IMG/VR virus record: IMGVR_UViG_3300042905_002575
Location: 1-23,752 of that record
Strand: one strand, 5' to 3'
DNA: 23,752 nt
From: a virus
Below, piece after piece: positions 2,743 to 8,390 of the stretch. The position numbers and the translations under genes are program-made. Positions within the stretch are counted from its first letter, which is position 1. Each line of letters begins with the position of its first letter. The notes under the pieces were generated by a model. It had not been told where the DNA came from, ran no database searches, and was given only the letters and a program-made list of their open reading frames with translations.

Positions 2743-4039
2743 CAACGGCGTTTTGCCGAACGTAGACGTACCTCGAGCCGGATTTACGGCCCGCCTTCCA
2801 CTCGCGCCGGACAAAGCCGAGCGACCGCAGGACCTTCGCGACGCGCATCTGCATGCCTCGCTCGTCCATCTTCGCGGGGTCGACCTTGATCGCATCCTGC
2901 AGCACCTGGTGCGTCGTGATCCCGTCGGTGTCCGACTGAATCGTGATCTCAGGCTGCGCGAGCCAGAGTCCGATGACCGACTCCCACGGGTCCTCGATGA
3001 GGCGCAGCGCCTGCTGCTCGTCGAACACCTCGCGGTGCTCGTCCTCGGGCCAGTAGGTTTCGCCTTCCTTCCACCGGTAGTAGGCCTCGGCCCACAGCTG
3101 GTCGCGGTCGCGCCTGAGATCGTCGGGCTTGATGCAGTGGGCGTAGACCGGCCAGTACCGCCGGTTGCCGGTCGAGTCGCGCAGGTAGGCTTCCTCGTTC
3201 GTGCTGCCGCTGAACACGCATTGCCTGGGCACGTCGATCGAGCGTCGCCCGTAGCTCGGGCGGTACGAGTCCACCGGTGACGAGAAGAAGGCCTTCGCCT
3301 TGGTGCTCTCGGCCTTGTTGAAGCTGTCGAGCTCGGCGAGCTCGATGATCCATTTCCCCCGCAGCATCTGGTACGCGTCCTTGTCGCCGAGGACGATCGG
3401 CGTATCGAGGAACCACTCGCCGCCGAGGATCCGCAGGGCCGTCGACTTGAACGCGCCTTGCTTGCCCTCGAAGATCAGCACGTTGTCGAACCGGCAGCCC
3501 GGCTTCATCACGCGCGCGACGGCGCCCATCAGCCACCACGAGCCCACCAGCCCGAGATAGCGCCGACAGTCGCCGCCGTGGCGCTGGTCGGCGCCTAGAT
3601 AGTCCATCAACCAGGTGTTGATCCGCACCTTGCCGTCCCAGGTGAGTCCGGCCAGGTACTCGCGCACTGGGTGCACCGGGTTCTGGCGCGCGACGATGTC
3701 GCACGCGTCATGCACGAGTGCTGTCTGCAGGTCGATGTTGAACTGCGAGTTGATGCGATGCCTGGCGTCGAGCGCGTCCTGATCTGTCCAGGCCTTGCCG
3801 CCCATGCGCGGCCAGGGCGCGTCTTTGACAATGGGCTCGCCGAGAAACTCGTCATAGCTCAGCCAGCGGTGCGCCTCGAGGCCCCACCGCAGCAGCAGGG
3901 CCGCGTTGTGGATGTCCGCCTTGATGTTGCCCAGTTGCTCTGGCTTGTCCTTCGGCGACGATGTCCGATGCAGCAGCGACTGCCAGTCGGTGCCGTCCTC
4001 GGCCATGGCGGCGCGGTATTCTTCGTCCTCGTAACTCAC
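2708..4039 (-). CDS. VapE-type P-loop ATPase, replication helicase/initiator
   Basis: A 443-aa virulence-associated-protein-E family ATPase, the kind that serves phages as a superfamily-3-like helicase or replication initiator. Residues 118-150 hold the conserved lead (NPVHPVREYLAGLTWDGKVR). The Walker A is at 190-200 (FEGKQGAFKST, with Lys199), a Walker-B-like strand at 230-238 (WIIELAELD) and the family's TGNRRYWPV at 290-298. The C-terminal region, about 350-430, looks like a winged helix ending in YVYVR. There is no Toprim or AEP primase domain, so a separate or host primase is needed. GTG at 4039 overlaps the upstream stop (GTGA). The last residues (GTGGDRDAF) are encoded by the repeat array at 2469-2742, suggesting the repeats have grown into the gene's end. 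Confidence 0.9.
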   Translation of the reverse strand: MSYEDEEYRAAMAEDGTDWQSLLHRTSSPKDKPEQLGNIKADIHNAALLLRWGLEAHRWLSYDEFLGEPIVKDAPWPRMGGKAWTDQDALDARHRINSQFNIDLQTALVHDACDIVARQNPVHPVREYLAGLTWDGKVRINTWLMDYLGADQRHGGDCRRYLGLVGSWWLMGAVARVMKPGCRFDNVLIFEGKQGAFKSTALRILGGEWFLDTPIVLGDKDAYQMLRGKWIIELAELDSFNKAESTKAKAFFSSPVDSYRPSYGRRSIDVPRQCVFSGSTNEEAYLRDSTGNRRYWPVYAHCIKPDDLRRDRDQLWAEAYYRWKEGETYWPEDEHREVFDEQQALRLIEDPWESVIGLWLAQPEITIQSDTDGITTHQVLQDAIKVDPAKMDERGMQMRVAKVLRSLGFVRREWKAGRKSGSRYVYVRQNAVEVGTGGDRDAF

Positions 4040-4860
4040 TTATTGCCCTTTACGGCATAGTCCTTGTGCACCATGCCCAGTTCCTTATTTCCGACGACGT
4101 GTGGTTGCACCCATGTCCACTCCCCGGGCTTGTATTCGCGAGGGTGCCCGCGACGTAGATGCACTCGCGGCGATGCATGAGTGCCGCCTTTGTCTGCTCT
4201 CTCGGTTGTGCCCCGGCTTAGTTCGACGTGCAGTGTCCAGTATGAAAACAGTGCCGCTCGGCCTTGCTTGGCGCGGCGCTTTTGGCGCGCAGAATCAGGT
4301 TTGTGCTCAAGCCGACTTATGTTCTTGCAATGAAGCGCAGAGAGAAATTTGCAAATTACAGTGCAAGCGAACTCAGCCTCGTCTTGTTTCAATCCGGCTG
4401 CTGGATCAAATCGCAACACCATGTCGGCTTTCGGATTCCCAGCAATGGCGCCTGCGTGCAGCAACGTCACCATGGTTACGCCAACGAACCCAAACTCTCC
4501 TTCGGCTTGATTCGGGACCGATACCCAGAGGAAAAGCGACAGTGTCCGACCGCGGCACGCTTGGTCGATGACCTCTGGGATAGGAACGTTGCATTCGTCC
4601 TCAAACACCAATGCGCCCCAGCGCTCGATGCCCAGGTCCCATTCAAACCAACATGTTGAAAATGGAAGACGAACGAGCTCCGTGATGACCTTGAAGTCAT
4701 CCACACTCATCGCATCACCAATATCGAAACACTGCGCAGACTTACCGCGACGCCTGAGTATCGCCCCCGCATTGTCAACATCCTCAACTCTGGCAACGCC
4801 CCAGTGCTGAAGTTGGCCGGATTGCAGCCGGTCAAATATCCTGTGCAGCGAGACACTCAC
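4036..4860 (-). CDS. Conserved phage protein, AT-richer than neighbours
   Basis: A 274-aa protein of unknown function. Its C-terminal 45 residues carry a pattern recurring in phage proteins: HASPRVHLRRGHPREY, then WTWVQPHVVGNKELGMVHKDY, which looks like a small basic nucleic-acid-binding module. The N-terminal 170 residues look like a globular alpha/beta domain with no motif I know. GTG at 4860 overlaps the upstream stop (GTGA), and its own stop overlaps the VapE-like start. Most of the gene, especially about 4200-4850, is visibly less GC-rich than everything around it, and its third positions are mixed rather than G/C. That suggests recent acquisition of this gene or of its N-terminal part. 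Operon position next to the ATPase suggests a replication or recombination role, by inference only. Confidence 0.7.
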   Translation of the reverse strand: MSVSLHRIFDRLQSGQLQHWGVARVEDVDNAGAILRRRGKSAQCFDIGDAMSVDDFKVITELVRLPFSTCWFEWDLGIERWGALVFEDECNVPIPEVIDQACRGRTLSLFLWVSVPNQAEGEFGFVGVTMVTLLHAGAIAGNPKADMVLRFDPAAGLKQDEAEFACTVICKFLSALHCKNISRLEHKPDSARQKRRAKQGRAALFSYWTLHVELSRGTTERADKGGTHASPRVHLRRGHPREYKPGEWTWVQPHVVGNKELGMVHKDYAVKGNK

Positions 4861-5303
4861 GCGCTCACCTTCTCGCGACGCTGCTGGATGTAGTTCCACC
4901 GATCGCAACGCTGCGCGTAGCGGTGAGCCTGCTCATCCGACCAGCAGGTCGGCCACGCATGGCCGGGTCGCGGCCAGCGCATCGCGTACATCAGGTAGTC
5001 GATTTCGACTACACCGCCGTCGACGCCGTCGATGAGCACGGGCGCGGCGTAGCCGGCGACGTCGGCGGCGAACACCGCGAAGTCGTCCCAGCTCGCGTCA
5101 TGGTTGGTCAGCACGGCCGGCAGCCCGGCAAGCCACGCCCAGGACGAATACTCCCGGGCGGTGTACTCGCGGGCCATGACCATCACGGCATGCGCCGGAT
5201 ACTGGCCGGCGCACCAGCGGTGCGTGTACACCAGGTGCACGCGCTTCGGGTGATGCCCAGCATCGCGCGACGCCTTGATGCGTCTTGCGTTAGGTGGCAG
5301 CAA
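4857..5303 (-). CDS. Phage early protein, unknown
   Basis: A 148-aa soluble protein with no recognised domain. Its features are an N-terminal RRIKASRDAGHHPKRVHLVY segment, many Trp and Tyr residues, and an acidic middle (VLIDGVDGGVVEIDYLMY). The most upstream start compatible with its neighbours is TTG at 5303, which overlaps the preceding gene by 14 nt; a weak GGGAT lies upstream. No better ATG or GTG precedes the conserved-looking RIKASRDAGHHP. It may work with the following 274-aa protein, whose start it overlaps, but I cannot assign a job. Confidence 0.65.
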   Translation of the reverse strand: MLPPNARRIKASRDAGHHPKRVHLVYTHRWCAGQYPAHAVMVMAREYTAREYSSWAWLAGLPAVLTNHDASWDDFAVFAADVAGYAAPVLIDGVDGGVVEIDYLMYAMRWPRPGHAWPTCWSDEQAHRYAQRCDRWNYIQQRREKVSA

Positions 5304-5517
5304 GGCACAGATCCCGGATAGTCGCGCGGTAACAGTCGCACATCGCCTCGTGCTCGCCGTCGATGATGGCCGCGCAATGCTGGGCGTGTGGTGCGGTTTT
5401 GATCTGGCGCAGGATCGCGCCGAAGGTCAGGTCGACCGCCTCGAGACGCGCCTCGTGGGCGTCGATGATGAGATCGGCGATGCCCTTGTGCAGGCGCAGG
5501 AGCTCCATCTCACTCAT
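5290..5517 (-). CDS. Small early phage protein, unknown
   Basis: A 75-aa helical protein (MSEMELLRLHKGIADLIIDA onward) with four Cys or His residues in the second half, including QHCAAIIDGEHEAMCDC. A small metal-binding site is therefore conceivable, but the spacing fits no standard zinc finger I know. It starts at ATG 5517, overlapping the upstream stop (ATGA). The reading frame stays open well upstream of this ATG, but the overlap pattern in this operon favours the short form. It lies among small genes of the early operon and its function is unknown. Confidence 0.6.
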   Translation of the reverse strand: MSEMELLRLHKGIADLIIDAHEARLEAVDLTFGAILRQIKTAPHAQHCAAIIDGEHEAMCDCYRATIRDLCLAAT

Positions 5518-5702
5518 GGGCCCGCCCTCATCGGCTTTTCCATCGCCTTGATCTCGCGCTTCGAGCGCTGGCGGTGCAGTTCCTTGATCCGGTTCCAGAG
5601 GACGTGCCGGCGGATGCGGTTGTGCTCGCACTGGAAGCGCAACATCAGCTCGTCGAGCCGCTGCTGCAGTCTCACGTCGGCGGGGTGCGTTGATCTGCTC
5701 AT
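5514..5702 (-). CDS. Small basic early phage protein, unknown
   Basis: A 62-aa, Arg/Glu-rich, almost wholly helical protein: an LQQRLDELMLRFQCEHNRIR helix, then NRIKELHRQRSKREIKAM. This looks like a short coiled coil or nucleic-acid-binding helix pair. It starts at ATG 5702 overlapping the stop before it (ATGA), and its stop overlaps the next start. No family is recognised. It is kept as a gene because of the tight overlaps on both sides and the amphipathic pattern. Confidence 0.6.
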   Translation of the reverse strand: MSRSTHPADVRLQQRLDELMLRFQCEHNRIRRHVLWNRIKELHRQRSKREIKAMEKPMRAGP

Positions 5703-5905
5703 AGTTCCACCTTTGGCCCGATGTAGGTCCATCGGTCGGTCTGTGGGTTCATTGAAACGAGGCGCCGCTCCTCAAGCTCGAGGAGGATGCCGCGCGTCGC
5801 GGCGATCCCCTCGCGCGTCTTGTCCGGCGAAACCTCGCGCAATAGCAGCGCGCGATTTGAGCGGCGGAGCGCCTGAATAATCATTGCGCGGGTGATGACG
5901 GTCAC
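5699..5905 (-). CDS. Small winged-helix-like protein, unknown
   Basis: A 68-aa protein whose arrangement resembles a small winged helix: helices MIIQALRRSNRALLLREVS and REGIAATRGILLELEERRLV, then a beta-hairpin NPQTDRWTYIGP. That order (HTH-like helices followed by an LEERRLVxxxxxxRWxY wing) is common in small DNA-binding proteins. The GTG start at 5905 overlaps the upstream stop (GTGA); an alternative ATG is at 5884. The DNA-binding role is inferred from fold-like pattern only. Confidence 0.55.
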   Translation of the reverse strand: MTVITRAMIIQALRRSNRALLLREVSPDKTREGIAATRGILLELEERRLVSMNPQTDRWTYIGPKVEL

Positions 5906-6141
5906 ACCGGCACCAGCGAGACGTGCGCGGCGAAAGACACCGGCTGCCCACGCATTCGGGCGACGTGCGTCTCGCGCAGGTACTGCACGAAACGGAACGC
6001 TTTCCCCCACTCGTAGCCGACCACCGGCGAGTCCAGCCTGCGGCCTGCGGCGTCGTACCAGGTCCGGCGCAGCCAGGTCACCCTGACCGGCTCAGAGGGC
6101 CGGTCGAGGTTGTACTCGGCGACGCGGATGGCGTATTTCAC
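5902..6141 (-). CDS. Small early phage protein, unknown
   Basis: A 79-aa basic protein with a likely beta-rich N-terminal half (VTWLRRTWYDAAGRRLDSPVV) and a helical middle (WGKAFRFVQYLRETHVARMR). No family is recognised. The GTG start at 6141 overlaps the stop of the 37-aa membrane peptide gene (GTGA), and the frame upstream is Arg/Ala-rich shadow sequence, so the short form is preferred. It is soluble, with no signal peptide. It is part of the early operon that begins at 6430. Confidence 0.6.
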   Translation of the reverse strand: MKYAIRVAEYNLDRPSEPVRVTWLRRTWYDAAGRRLDSPVVGYEWGKAFRFVQYLRETHVARMRGQPVSFAAHVSLVPV

Positions 6142-6251
6142 GGCAGCCAGCGCGCGCTGATGGCGCCAACGACGAAGGCTGCGATGCCGATGATGATCAG
6201 CATCGGCAAGCCGGCAATCAGCATCAGTACGACGCGCAGCAGCGGATTCAC
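6138..6251 (-). CDS. 37-aa single-pass membrane peptide
   Basis: A very small gene: GTG at 6251, TGA at 6138. The peptide is one long hydrophobic stretch, beginning VNPLLRVVLMLIAGLPMLII and continuing IGIAAFVVGAISARWLP. That is one transmembrane helix with an Arg near each end. Its start overlaps the previous stop and its stop overlaps the next start (GTGA at both ends), which together with the hydrophobic pattern argues that it is translated. Phage early operons often carry such inner-membrane micropeptides, some of which act in superinfection exclusion or host membrane modulation. That role is only a possibility here. Confidence 0.6.
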   Translation of the reverse strand: MNPLLRVVLMLIAGLPMLIIIGIAAFVVGAISARWLP

Positions 6252-6430
6252 ATGCGCGCCCGCCTGGCCTCGCCGTAGAAGTACCGGCCGCGCTTTGGCG
6301 CGTTCTTCGGATGCAGCACCCAGCGCTCGCCGAGCCAGGCAATGGCGGCGGCGCGCTTCTCTTCTAAGGTCTGCGGAACGCGGCCGACGCGGGCCGCTGC
6401 GGAGACGTAGTCGCTCAGGATCTGAGTCAT
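6248..6430 (-). CDS. First gene of the early operon, unknown
   Basis: A 60-aa protein (MTQILSDYVSAAARVGRVPQ onward), helical then basic, ending in GRYFYGEARRARM. No family is recognised. The ATG at 6430 has a good GCGAGG about 6 nt upstream, lying inside the repeated CACTGCGAGG element (minus strand, 6445 to 6436). It sits directly after the strong terminator at 6447-6474, so its expression needs read-through or a promoter within the few bases between. That position is where an antitermination-dependent first gene would be. An N-like role cannot be shown: it is not especially Arg-rich at the N-terminus. Confidence 0.65.
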   Translation of the reverse strand: MTQILSDYVSAAARVGRVPQTLEEKRAAAIAWLGERWVLHPKNAPKRGRYFYGEARRARM

Positions 6431-6446
6431 GTGAACCTCGCAGTGG

Positions 6447-6474
6447 TTAAAAGAGCCCCGGCATAAGCCGGGGC
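6447..6474 (-). terminator. Strong intrinsic terminator in the early leader
   Basis: A perfect 8-bp stem pairs 6455-6462 (GCCCCGGC) with 6467-6474 (GCCGGGGC) around a 4-nt loop. On the minus strand it is followed by TCTTTTAA. It is about 180 nt downstream of the promoter-like sequence at 6655-6683 and directly upstream of the first early gene, in the position of lambda tL1/tR1. Confidence 0.85.
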
Positions 6475-6626
6475 AGGACAGCAACGCTGGGCAGGGAGGA
6501 GCTGAACGAAAAGGTGCGCGGCTGGTTCACTGCGAGCGGACCCGGAGGAGGGACCATCGCGCCGACGCCAGCCCAGCCGCGCGCTGGCGCCGGGTGCGAG
6601 TTCTTGGAAGTTTGTATCTGGTCCAT
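6447..6626 (-). CDS. Possible leader peptide ORF (doubtful)
   Basis: A 59-aa frame starting at ATG 6626 behind a GCGAGG-type ribosome binding site that is itself part of the repeated CACTGCGAGG element. The peptide starts MDQIQTSKNSHPAPARGW and is rich in Pro, Ser and Ala. Its last residues (LPRLMPGLF) and its stop codon are encoded by the terminator hairpin and T-run. It resembles no family I know. It may be a translated leader that couples ribosome position to the terminator, or simply a chance frame in a non-coding leader. Confidence 0.3.
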   Translation of the reverse strand: MDQIQTSKNSHPAPARGWAGVGAMVPPPGPLAVNQPRTFSFSSSLPSVAVLPRLMPGLF

Positions 6627-6654
6627 GTCCACCTCGCAGTGACGAGATGGGGTA

Positions 6655-6683
6655 ACGCTACTTTCGTTCTGCAAACTTTGCAA
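6655..6683 (-). promoter_or_regulatory. Candidate early promoter, minus strand
   Basis: On the minus strand TTGCAA (6683 to 6678) is followed after exactly 17 nt by TAGCGT (6660 to 6655). The -35 is fair and the -10 poor, so it may need activation. The -35 overlaps the first operator-like element (6670-6682), as expected of a repressible promoter. It would drive the leader and the early operon. Assignment is by pattern only. Confidence 0.4.
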
Positions 6684-6729
6684 CGGCTAACTTTGCAGAT
6701 CGAAGACTTGCGGATCGAATAGCTGGATT
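6670..6729. promoter_or_regulatory. 15-bp-periodic operator-like array
   Basis: The first element, 6670-6682 (TGCAAACTTTGCA), is a perfect palindrome apart from its centre. The second, 6685-6697 (GGCTAACTTTGCA), matches it at 10 of 13 positions, starting exactly 15 bp later. Two more degenerate units follow at 6700 and 6715, and the direct repeat GATCGAA at 6698 and 6713 has the same 15-bp spacing. The array lies between the divergent regulator gene (6782, plus) and early operon (minus), where a phage repressor/Cro-like protein should bind. Confidence 0.55.
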
Positions 6730-6781
6730 TTTCTCGGGAAAAGAGCTACAAAAGATCCATCACTGCGAGGAGATTTTCCCA

Positions 6782-7360
6782 ATGAAGACCAGCAACGACA
6801 TCTTGGATGCCGTGGCCAAGAAACTCGGCGGCGTCAACGATCACACCATTGCGCGCGAGACGGGATTGACTCCGGCCGCGATTTCGTTGGTGCGAACAGG
6901 GCGACGATCGATCTCGCCGCGCGATTGCAAAAAGGTCGCGGCGGTGCTGGGTTGCGAGGTCGGCGCCTTGGTCGCCATTGCGACAGCCGAGCGCGAAGAT
7001 GACCGGGCGATTAGGGAAAGCTTGCTGAAGCTGGCCGAGGGCAGTTTGAAGATAGCTGCCCAGACCGGAAAGGCGAGACGGAAGGTCGCGGCGGCAGCGC
7101 TGCTTGCGGTTGGGCTGCAGGTGGCCCCTACTCCGCCCGTGCAGGCCGTGCAGGCCGTGCAGCAGCAACCAGCAGCCTGTTTATTATGTAAAGTCGCGCC
7201 GCCGCGCCGGATCCGCCGCCGCGAGCGCCGCGGCGTGGCCTACCCCAAACGGATTAAGCCTACGGTATACAGAGGCTTGGCCGGGATTCCCGAGATCAAA
7301 CCTCGATTCCTCCTACGGAGTTTGTCTGACACGGTGTCGCTACATCGGGACGTCGCATAA
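6782..7360 (+). CDS. HTH regulator, DUF3693-like, with possible membrane segment
   Basis: A 192-aa protein with an N-terminal Cro/CI-like HTH: MKTSNDILDAVAKKLGGVND, then TIARETGLTPAAISLVRTGR and DCKKVAAVLGCEVGALV (about residues 1-65). The opening strongly recalls the DUF3693 regulator family of phages. A hydrophobic stretch near residues 104-118 (VAAAALLAVGLQVAP) may be a membrane segment, then comes a Pro/Gln-Ala-Val repeat and a very basic tail. No LexA/CI-type peptidase follows. It starts at ATG 6782, after GGAG in the CACTGCGAGGAG element. It is divergent from the early operon and probably binds the array at 6670-6729. The tail beyond residue 150 could be non-conserved read-through sequence, since 7237-7384 also holds regulatory-looking DNA. 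Confidence 0.7.
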   Translation: MKTSNDILDAVAKKLGGVNDHTIARETGLTPAAISLVRTGRRSISPRDCKKVAAVLGCEVGALVAIATAEREDDRAIRESLLKLAEGSLKIAAQTGKARRKVAAAALLAVGLQVAPTPPVQAVQAVQQQPAACLLCKVAPPRRIRRRERRGVAYPKRIKPTVYRGLAGIPEIKPRFLLRSLSDTVSLHRDVA

Positions 7361-7384: not shown

Positions 7385-7726
7385 ATGATCGACTTGCCGA
7401 CCCTCGCCTGGCGCAGCGGGCGTCCCCGGCGCGAGCTCGCTGGCGCGCTCGGGGTGAGTGTGCCGACGCTTGAGCGGTATCTCAAATTGAACCACGCGCC
7501 CGCGCCGATGGTGCAGCTGCTCGAGATCCTGGCCGGCCGCATGCCGTGGGACGGCTTCGAGCACATGACGGCGTACCGCGGCGCCATTTACTACCGGGAT
7601 CAGCTCGACGGGCTGCCGGCGGCCGAAATCCCGGCCTACCACTGGCGCCTGAAGGAGCTCGAGGCGGTGCGGGTGGAACTGTCGCGCTACCAGCGCGCGC
7701 CGGCGCAGTACCTGCTGAACCTGTAA
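7385..7726 (+). CDS. HTH protein, DUF3653-like (putative)
   Basis: A 113-aa protein with an N-terminal HTH (RSGRPRRELAGALGVSVPTL, then ERYLKLNHAPAPMVQLLEIL), followed by a small domain with WDGFEHMTAYRGAIYYRDQL and a helical end (ELEAVRVELSRYQRAPAQYL). This layout, an HTH plus a short Trp-centred domain and final helix, recalls the DUF3653 family that accompanies phage regulators; my confidence in that name is moderate. AAGGAG lies 10 nt before ATG 7385. It follows the other plus-strand regulator with a 24-nt gap, so the two probably form one transcript. It converges on the late operon, whose last stop is only 32 nt away, and no terminator is visible between them. Confidence 0.7.
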   Translation: MIDLPTLAWRSGRPRRELAGALGVSVPTLERYLKLNHAPAPMVQLLEILAGRMPWDGFEHMTAYRGAIYYRDQLDGLPAAEIPAYHWRLKELEAVRVELSRYQRAPAQYLLNL

Positions 7727-7758: not shown

Positions 7759-8175
7759 CTACCGGGTGGCGCCGCGCAGTTTTTCCAGCGAGCGCATGCC
7801 GCCGAGCCCGAGCATGCCGCAGAGCAGCACCAGCAGGTCCCCGAGTTCGACTTCCGGAATGGGCGTCTCGCCGCCCGTCATCAGCAGCACCCAGGAGGCG
7901 AGCGGACGCCCGATGTAGTGCCAGCCAAGCGCAACGCCGCAGATCCAGCCGATGAAGGGCCGCCACCGCGAGACGAACGGATCCGCGCTCGCCGCCTCGA
8001 CCTGGTTGACGGCGGTCTGCTGCCGCGACGCTTCGAGCTCGGCGTCGAGCCGCTTGAATTCGCCGGCCTGCTGCAGCTCGGCCAGCGCCTGCGCGGCCTG
8101 CGCGCGGGCCGCGGGATCCGGCCAGGCGCGGTCGATGAGCTTGCCGAGCAGGGTCGCGATCGCGTCGCCGATCAC
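7759..8175 (-). CDS. Holin, 3-TM (GTA_holin_3TM-like)
   Basis: A 138-aa inner-membrane protein that would permeabilise the membrane and trigger lysis. The first 65 residues are soluble and helical (Ala/Gln/Glu-rich, KRLDAELEASRQQ). The membrane part begins at about residue 68 with SRWRPFIGWICGVALGWHY, has a second hydrophobic segment (PLASWVLLM), then LGDLLVLLCGMLGLGGMRSL, and ends EKLRGATR. The RPFIGW...MLGLGGMRSLEK pattern is that of the three-TM phage/GTA holin family. GTG 8175 overlaps the upstream stop (GTGA). It is the last gene of the late operon, behind the lysis accessory protein and endolysin. Confidence 0.85.
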   Translation of the reverse strand: MIGDAIATLLGKLIDRAWPDPAARAQAAQALAELQQAGEFKRLDAELEASRQQTAVNQVEAASADPFVSRWRPFIGWICGVALGWHYIGRPLASWVLLMTGGETPIPEVELGDLLVLLCGMLGLGGMRSLEKLRGATR

Positions 8176-8390
8176 CGGACGATCCCGAGCACCGCGGCCA
8201 GCTTGGCCATCGCCGCGCCGGCGGCGCCGGCCGCGCCGCCGACCAGCATCAGCGTCTTCCACCCGCCCCGGGCCTCGGCCAGCGTCTGGCGGATCTCGGC
8301 CAGCTCGTGCCGCATCTCGCGCAGCTCGTACTGCAGGTGCTCGATGCTCGCGCTGTGCTGGCCGACCCGCTGGTGCAATTCGTCGTTCAT
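8172..8390 (-). CDS. Coiled-coil plus TM lysis accessory protein
   Basis: A 72-aa protein: residues 5-40 form a coiled-coil-like helix (ASIEHLQYELREMRHELAEI, then RQTLAEARGG), and residues 44-68 form a glycine/alanine-rich membrane helix (TLMLVGGAAGAAGAAMAKLA). Proteins of this shape (XhlA-like or holin-associated) sit beside holins in many phages. The membrane anchor is C-terminal, the reverse of Rz, so it is not an Rz spanin, and no nested lipoprotein frame is seen. ATG 8390 overlaps the endolysin stop (ATGA) and its stop overlaps the holin start (GTGA). Topology is inferred from sequence. Confidence 0.7.
   Translation of the reverse strand: MNDELHQRVGQHSASIEHLQYELREMRHELAEIRQTLAEARGGWKTLMLVGGAAGAAGAAMAKLAAVLGIVR

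Follow-up and report, generated by a model that had tools for sequence, protein, structure and literature searches.

What is the function of the graded series of repeats lying between two divergent genes of a tailed virus, which protein reads it, and why are its units spaced by about 15 bp? The question is raised by positions 6670-6729 of the window, i.e., the whole 23,752-nt stretch of viral DNA analyzed (IMG/VR record IMGVR_UViG_3300042905_002575). Read directly from the sequence, TGCAAACTTTGCA (6670-6682; candidate operator site 1) is a palindrome of 13 bp, perfect around a single central base. Candidate sites 2, 3, and 4 follow at 6685-6697, 6700-6712, and 6715-6727, the last being weak. 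Identity to TGCAAACTTTGCA decreases from 13/13 at 6670 to 11/13 at 6685, 7/13 at 6700, and 6/13 at 6715, as expected from the original prediction of a palindrome decaying in 15-bp steps; the palindromic pairs left are 4/6 at 6685, and 3/6 at both 6700 and 6715. Outside the array, the 15-bp phases 6655 and 6730 match at only 5/13 and 2/13 positions. Right half-sites read TTTGCA at 6677 and 6692, CTTGCG at 6707; the heptamer GATCGAA, said to repeat with the same step, is indeed found at 6698 and again at 6713, and TTTGCAGAnCGAA has an inverted copy at 6675-6663. No further copy of the array motifs was found in the window or in the examined stretches of the sister contigs described below.

Within 6650-6781 the self-match score is 13 at lag 15, the runner-up lag scoring 6, and in this local test a score of 13 at any lag from 8 to 40 was reached in 1 of 2000 dinucleotide shuffles. 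Lag segments scoring 13 are common in the whole 23.7-kb window, mostly in coding DNA and at lags divisible by 3; shuffled whole windows (n=20) contain 0-4 of them each. Since repeats of equal score are so widespread, periodicity alone is a modest finding, and does not mark out the site. The array is real, and the decisive evidence for it is comparative.

When 2.9 million viral contigs (IMG/VR) were searched with the HTH protein encoded next to the array, two records were identified, L001 (31.4 kb) and L002 (19.0 kb), which may derive from related samples. Window and L001 are 97.6% identical over 1793 bp in the left flank, and 99.48% identical over 10430 bp in the right flank. Identity ends at 6649 and restarts at 7163, and the intervening 6650-7162 cassette has been replaced as a block, being divergent between the window and L001/L002. 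It includes the two promoter-like pairs, the array between them, and the portion of the 6782-7360 regulator gene that encodes the N-terminus. No motif is shared by the window and L001 in the replaced stretch. The L001 array is made up by four 14-mers, ATCACATTTGTGAT, ATTTCAAGTGTGAT, ATTGCGGTCGTGAT, and ATTTCCCTTGTGAT; the leftmost one, at 2881-2894 of L001 (counterpart of site 1), is the best palindrome and sits at the left promoter, the three weaker sites coming after. The step, originally given as exactly 15 bp, is so in the window (15, 15, 15) and is not rigid, being 15, 14, 15 in the sister allele. A four-fold 5-mer array with near-constant step was obtained in 1 of 5000 shuffles of the L001 replaced stretch, and the leading lag of that stretch, 29 (15+14), was equalled in none of 2000. 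As L001 and L002 have the same cassette, they count as one alternative allele, not two. Operators and DNA-binding domain thus co-vary between relatives whose flanks are near-identical. Relatives keeping only the first palindrome, an outcome regarded at the outset as adverse to the array, were not encountered: the sisters keep four sites in a ~15-bp layout, built from other sequence.

Viral contigs were searched with the window protein, an alignment of its N-terminal part, the downstream protein, a leftward ORF, the L001 N-terminus, and a flank pattern, and no further true relative emerged; genome-contig searches gave no match. One record (L179) was considered as a relative of the regulator and rejected, the match being confined to 20 residues within an unrelated ORF. 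In scans for other phages with such arrays, among at least 333 pattern matches, a number that includes repeat copies of loci, a relative of the regulator is adjacent to those of the two sister contigs only. Other matches examined are mostly tandem coding repeats, those in L094 and L098 residing outside ORFs of at least 60 codons. A second replaced stretch was noticed upon comparison of the window with L010, similarity ending at 4039 and coming back at 4857; the replaced DNA (4040-4856) takes in most of the 4036-4908 ORF.

Two promoter-like pairs delimit the array. The candidate left promoter (6655-6683, minus strand) is formed by TTGCAA (6683-6678) and TAGCGT (6660-6655) separated by 17 bp, the candidate promoter of the regulator gene (6724-6752, plus strand) by TGGATT and TACAAA, also 17 bp apart, with the -35 overlapped by site 4. 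The L001 counterparts are TTGAAA-17-TAGCGT and TTGATT-17-TATTAA. The position and the -10 of the left promoter are therefore kept in the sister allele, as are the 17-bp spacers, and the distance between the two pairs is 69 bp in the window and 68 bp in L001. No promoter was found in the array region by a consensus scan, and both candidates consequently rest on position and conservation within diverged sequence. The first element was originally placed over the -35 of a candidate early promoter. The overlap with TTGCAA of the minus-strand pair is there, while the -10 is poor and the scan empty, so that the promoter itself stays a candidate. The array spans the gap between the two pairs, and is strongest at its leftward end; an operator array between the regulator and a divergent, leftward early operon bearing VapE, as predicted, is well supported. 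The putative first small ORF of the leftward operon (6447-6626, minus strand; 59 aa) has 6 differences when examined for codon-position bias, affecting 3 synonymous and 3 nonsynonymous codons. In the same region a decamer, CACTGCGAGG, precedes three gene starts, on both strands, with one mismatch at most (6436-6445 and 6632-6641, minus strand; 6528-6537 and 6761-6770, plus strand). Nine such decamers are present in the window vs. 3.33 expected, a number reached in 0 of 100 shuffles; the decamer may be an extended ribosome-binding leader, or an RNA or DNA site.

The regulator (6782-7360, plus strand; 192 aa) is a predicted repressor of the XRE/HTH_3 type assigned to phrog_638, the profile matching the N-terminal domain with E values of 8.5e-16 in the window, and 3.5e-14 and 5.9e-14 in the sister records. 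Its DNA-binding domain is allele-specific: residues 1-88 are 51% identical to those of the sister protein, the remaining C-terminal part being identical. The structure model is good up to residue 90 (pLDDT about 84-90 in each block) and poor beyond. In the model, the HTH is formed by helices 20-27 and 31-38. The latter, predicted to be the recognition helix, has the sequence PAAISLVR in the window, replaced by QSTISMIR in L001; the first three residues and residue 36 are changed, I34, S35, and R38 are kept. A fold search with the model gave weak matches, including HigA, lambda CI, controller proteins, and Stl; at a best E value of 0.21, the result speaks for no more than a generic HTH fold. 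Among sequences of solved structures, the best match is 28tn_A (E 4.4e-4), a 'lambda repressor-like protein'. Upon tblastn against phages the whole regulator had no match at E 1e-3, its N-terminal 88 residues weak matches, including VGJ at E 8e-3; plasmids gave weak Streptomyces matches only. Each of the three records, which may be fragments, encodes a single clear HTH_3 protein.

The right half-sites (TTTGCA in the window, GTGAT in the sister allele) might be read as direct repeats bound by one subunit each, in the manner of the P2 C repressor. They are much more conserved than the left ones in both alleles; a P2 C dimer is reported to sit on two 8-bp direct repeats 22 bp apart centre to centre (PMC4752584), and Pf4r, an inovirus protein, is described as a non-palindromic binder like P2 C (PMC8402870). 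Yet site 1 is near-palindromic in both alleles, the step is 15 rather than 22 bp, and P2 C is absent from the best 50 rows of the fold search, whose matches are weak, all of which makes this arrangement unlikely. Replication-origin iterons bound by an initiator are very improbable. Direct repeats do occur here close to a VapE-type primase/helicase gene, and repeats resembling iterons, with a 15-bp step and the same hexamers, are found within an ORF of another phage (L134), but the array lies between promoter-like pairs and is swapped together with the DNA-binding domain of the repressor, while neither the 4857-6649 flank nor the VapE gene (92.8%) has been co-replaced. The repeats of L134 (4800-4935), as those at 8070-8190 of another record (L138), are TGCAAA/TTTGCA direct repeats with a 15-bp step inside an ORF; those of L134 translate to 5-residue protein repeats. 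Both sets look like origin iterons in a replication gene. A chance array, or a decayed tandem repeat devoid of function, would agree with the abundance of equal-score lag repeats across the window; it is scarcely credible given that the sister allele has the same number of sites at nearly the same steps, made from other sequence and outside coding DNA.

Hardly conceivable as the reader of the array is the second small protein (7385-7726, plus strand; 113 aa), which shows weak HTH matches (an HTH_3 score of 12.1 bits, under the cut-off, in two of the three records) and has 99-100% identity across the three: near-invariant across phages whose arrays are unrelated and share no motif, it cannot set array specificity. 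It occupies the place of the inovirus partner proteins, and gave nothing significant by phmmer against seven inovirus or phage partners. Both HTH proteins had been put forward as binders; the 6782-7360 protein is retained as the likely reader, as judged from the allele comparison, and the 7385-7726 protein, invariant between alleles, is not.

The 6650-7162 stretch is very probably the heteroimmunity cassette of a single-repressor switch, in a tailed phage presumed to be temperate; Phage_integrase had no match in any of the three records, which may be fragments. Dimers of the XRE repressor would bind the four nearly abutting 13-14-bp sites between the two divergent promoters, the strongest site lying on the leftward early-operon promoter, the weaker ones progressing to the repressor's own promoter. 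With increasing repressor, the leftward operon would be turned off first, the repressor gene next; the grading of the array, from the left promoter to that of the regulator, suggests that the early operon is strongly repressed, and that negative autoregulation sets in at a higher level. One HTH dimer per site fits, because the outer bases of the palindrome are about one turn apart in both alleles. Since 15 bp correspond to about 1.43 turns, i.e., a rotation of ~154 degrees (15 x 360/10.5, modulo 360), neighbouring dimers would occupy roughly opposite sides of the DNA, a geometric reading that suggests end-to-end packing. Exchange of the cassette as a block would generate heteroimmune sisters alike in geometry and unlike in operator alphabet.

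The spacing of repeats was monitored in relatives of the regulator. VGJ orf154 hit 75 phage records by tblastn, and the DNA upstream of the regulator was checked at eleven Vibrio inovirus loci (200 mononucleotide shuffles, p 0.05), several of which are closely related and not independent. A repeat lag of 21-25 bp was found in nine of the eleven at p 0.05 or better, about 22-23 bp being typical; Vf33 has a 45-bp lag, with 23 bp at p 0.055, and L166 nothing clear. Lag 15 reached p 0.05 in none of the eleven. In nine further loci (phiLF, SHP2, SMA7, Cf1c, XacF1, phiXv2, a Vinavirales Vibrio phage, a black-swan inovirus, and SMA9) no lag of 14-16 bp was found at p 0.05; three have other lags (48, 22, and 19 bp), and the Xanthomonas/Stenotrophomonas relatives mostly feature one palindrome. 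A ~15-bp array is thus missing in all 20 relatives examined, the inovirus ones being about 33% identical to the window regulator, and the step deserved to be called unusual, as the repeats of the relatives are about 22-23 bp apart. Vf33 (L161) and K04M1 (L162) are near-identical in the left DNA up to the array, where half-sites begin to differ; the 22/23-bp spacing is kept while DNA-binding domain and helix residues change. The pair may be read as a natural immunity swap in inoviruses, of the same kind as that seen in the sister phages.

A further trait may link the tailed phage to these inoviruses. TGTTTATTATGTAAAGT, at 7178-7194, matches at 14 of 17 positions the central region and the XerD arm of the bacterial dif consensus, and is the only dif-type match with four mismatches or fewer in the window. 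The match is situated within the 3' portion of the regulator gene, at 396 bp from the gene start, its first base being 15 bp inside the right-hand junction of the swapped cassette. In phiLF and phiXv2, whose recombination cores are annotated, and in SHP2, which has an unannotated dif-like match, the distance from the regulator start is 367-370 bp. As the cassette ends just short of the dif-like core, the tailed phage might conceivably integrate by host XerCD, like the filamentous donors of the regulator. A wider scenario, in which spacing is inherited while operator and helix are freely exchanged, the tailed branch passed from 22-23 to ~15 bp, dimers build a closed spiral, and XerCD possibly serves integration, is speculative and rather doubtful; if true, array spacing would be an inherited geometry of the repressor family, independent of operator sequence.

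Natural phages that are near-isogenic, and differ most sharply at the putative immunity cassette, provide a clean natural experiment. The sister comparison points to the likely reader of the array, and documents that the spacing persists through a change of sequence. The occurrence of a 15-bp and a 22-23-bp branch in one family makes the co-evolution of oligomer geometry and helical phase testable. A naturally swapped, putative immunity cassette in which a tight, near-15-bp operator geometry is retained is what appears to be new. No description of a 15-bp operator array for the phrog_638 family was met in titles and abstract openings of a literature mostly without subscription journals, in which the term DUF3693 does not occur.

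The locus resembles known switches in layout, and departs from them in spacing. In lambda and 434, an HTH_3 repressor acts on palindromic operators located between divergent promoters, and repressor and operators are swapped together among heteroimmune relatives; three operators are spaced at about 20-24 bp. The CI-type combination of HTH repressor, divergent promoters, and multiple operators is found in the window, the promoters being assigned by position and conservation only. Unlike lambda and 434, the window has four abutting sites at ~15 bp, and a Cro partner is missing in the window and sister records (three records, possibly fragments). The about-two-turn spacing (20-25 bp) of the lambda and inovirus type is not seen, steps being 15, 15, 15 in the window and 15, 14, 15 in L001. 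Operators differ also among heteroimmune Gifsy phages (PMC3121763). Similar in description is the RstR repressor of CTXphi, an inovirus protein with divergent alleles; rstR alleles confer allele-specific repression (PMC7326730), and RstR binds as a dimer of dimers (PMC8402870). P2 C and Pf4r are small phage repressors acting on repeated half-sites, and the non-palindromic 22-bp direct repeats reported for P2 C (PMC4752584) are unlike the ~15-bp array, whose first site is palindromic. Closest are the inovirus regulators of the VGJphi/fs1 and Cf1/phiLf types, which share phrog_638 and sequence similarity with the window protein (the phiLF record names its regulator 'DUF3693, Cf1cp8-like'). As in the window, the HTH is N-terminal and a divergent gene lies opposite; often a small second protein comes next, and a dif-type recombination core is annotated close to the 3' end of the regulator gene. 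The viruses carrying them are filamentous, whereas the window virus is tailed, and their arrays have 21-25 bp spacing in Vibrio, mostly a single palindrome in Xanthomonas/Stenotrophomonas, vs. ~15 bp in the window. The ~15-bp packing, with binding putative, would thus represent a new geometry within a known type of regulator and immunity switch.
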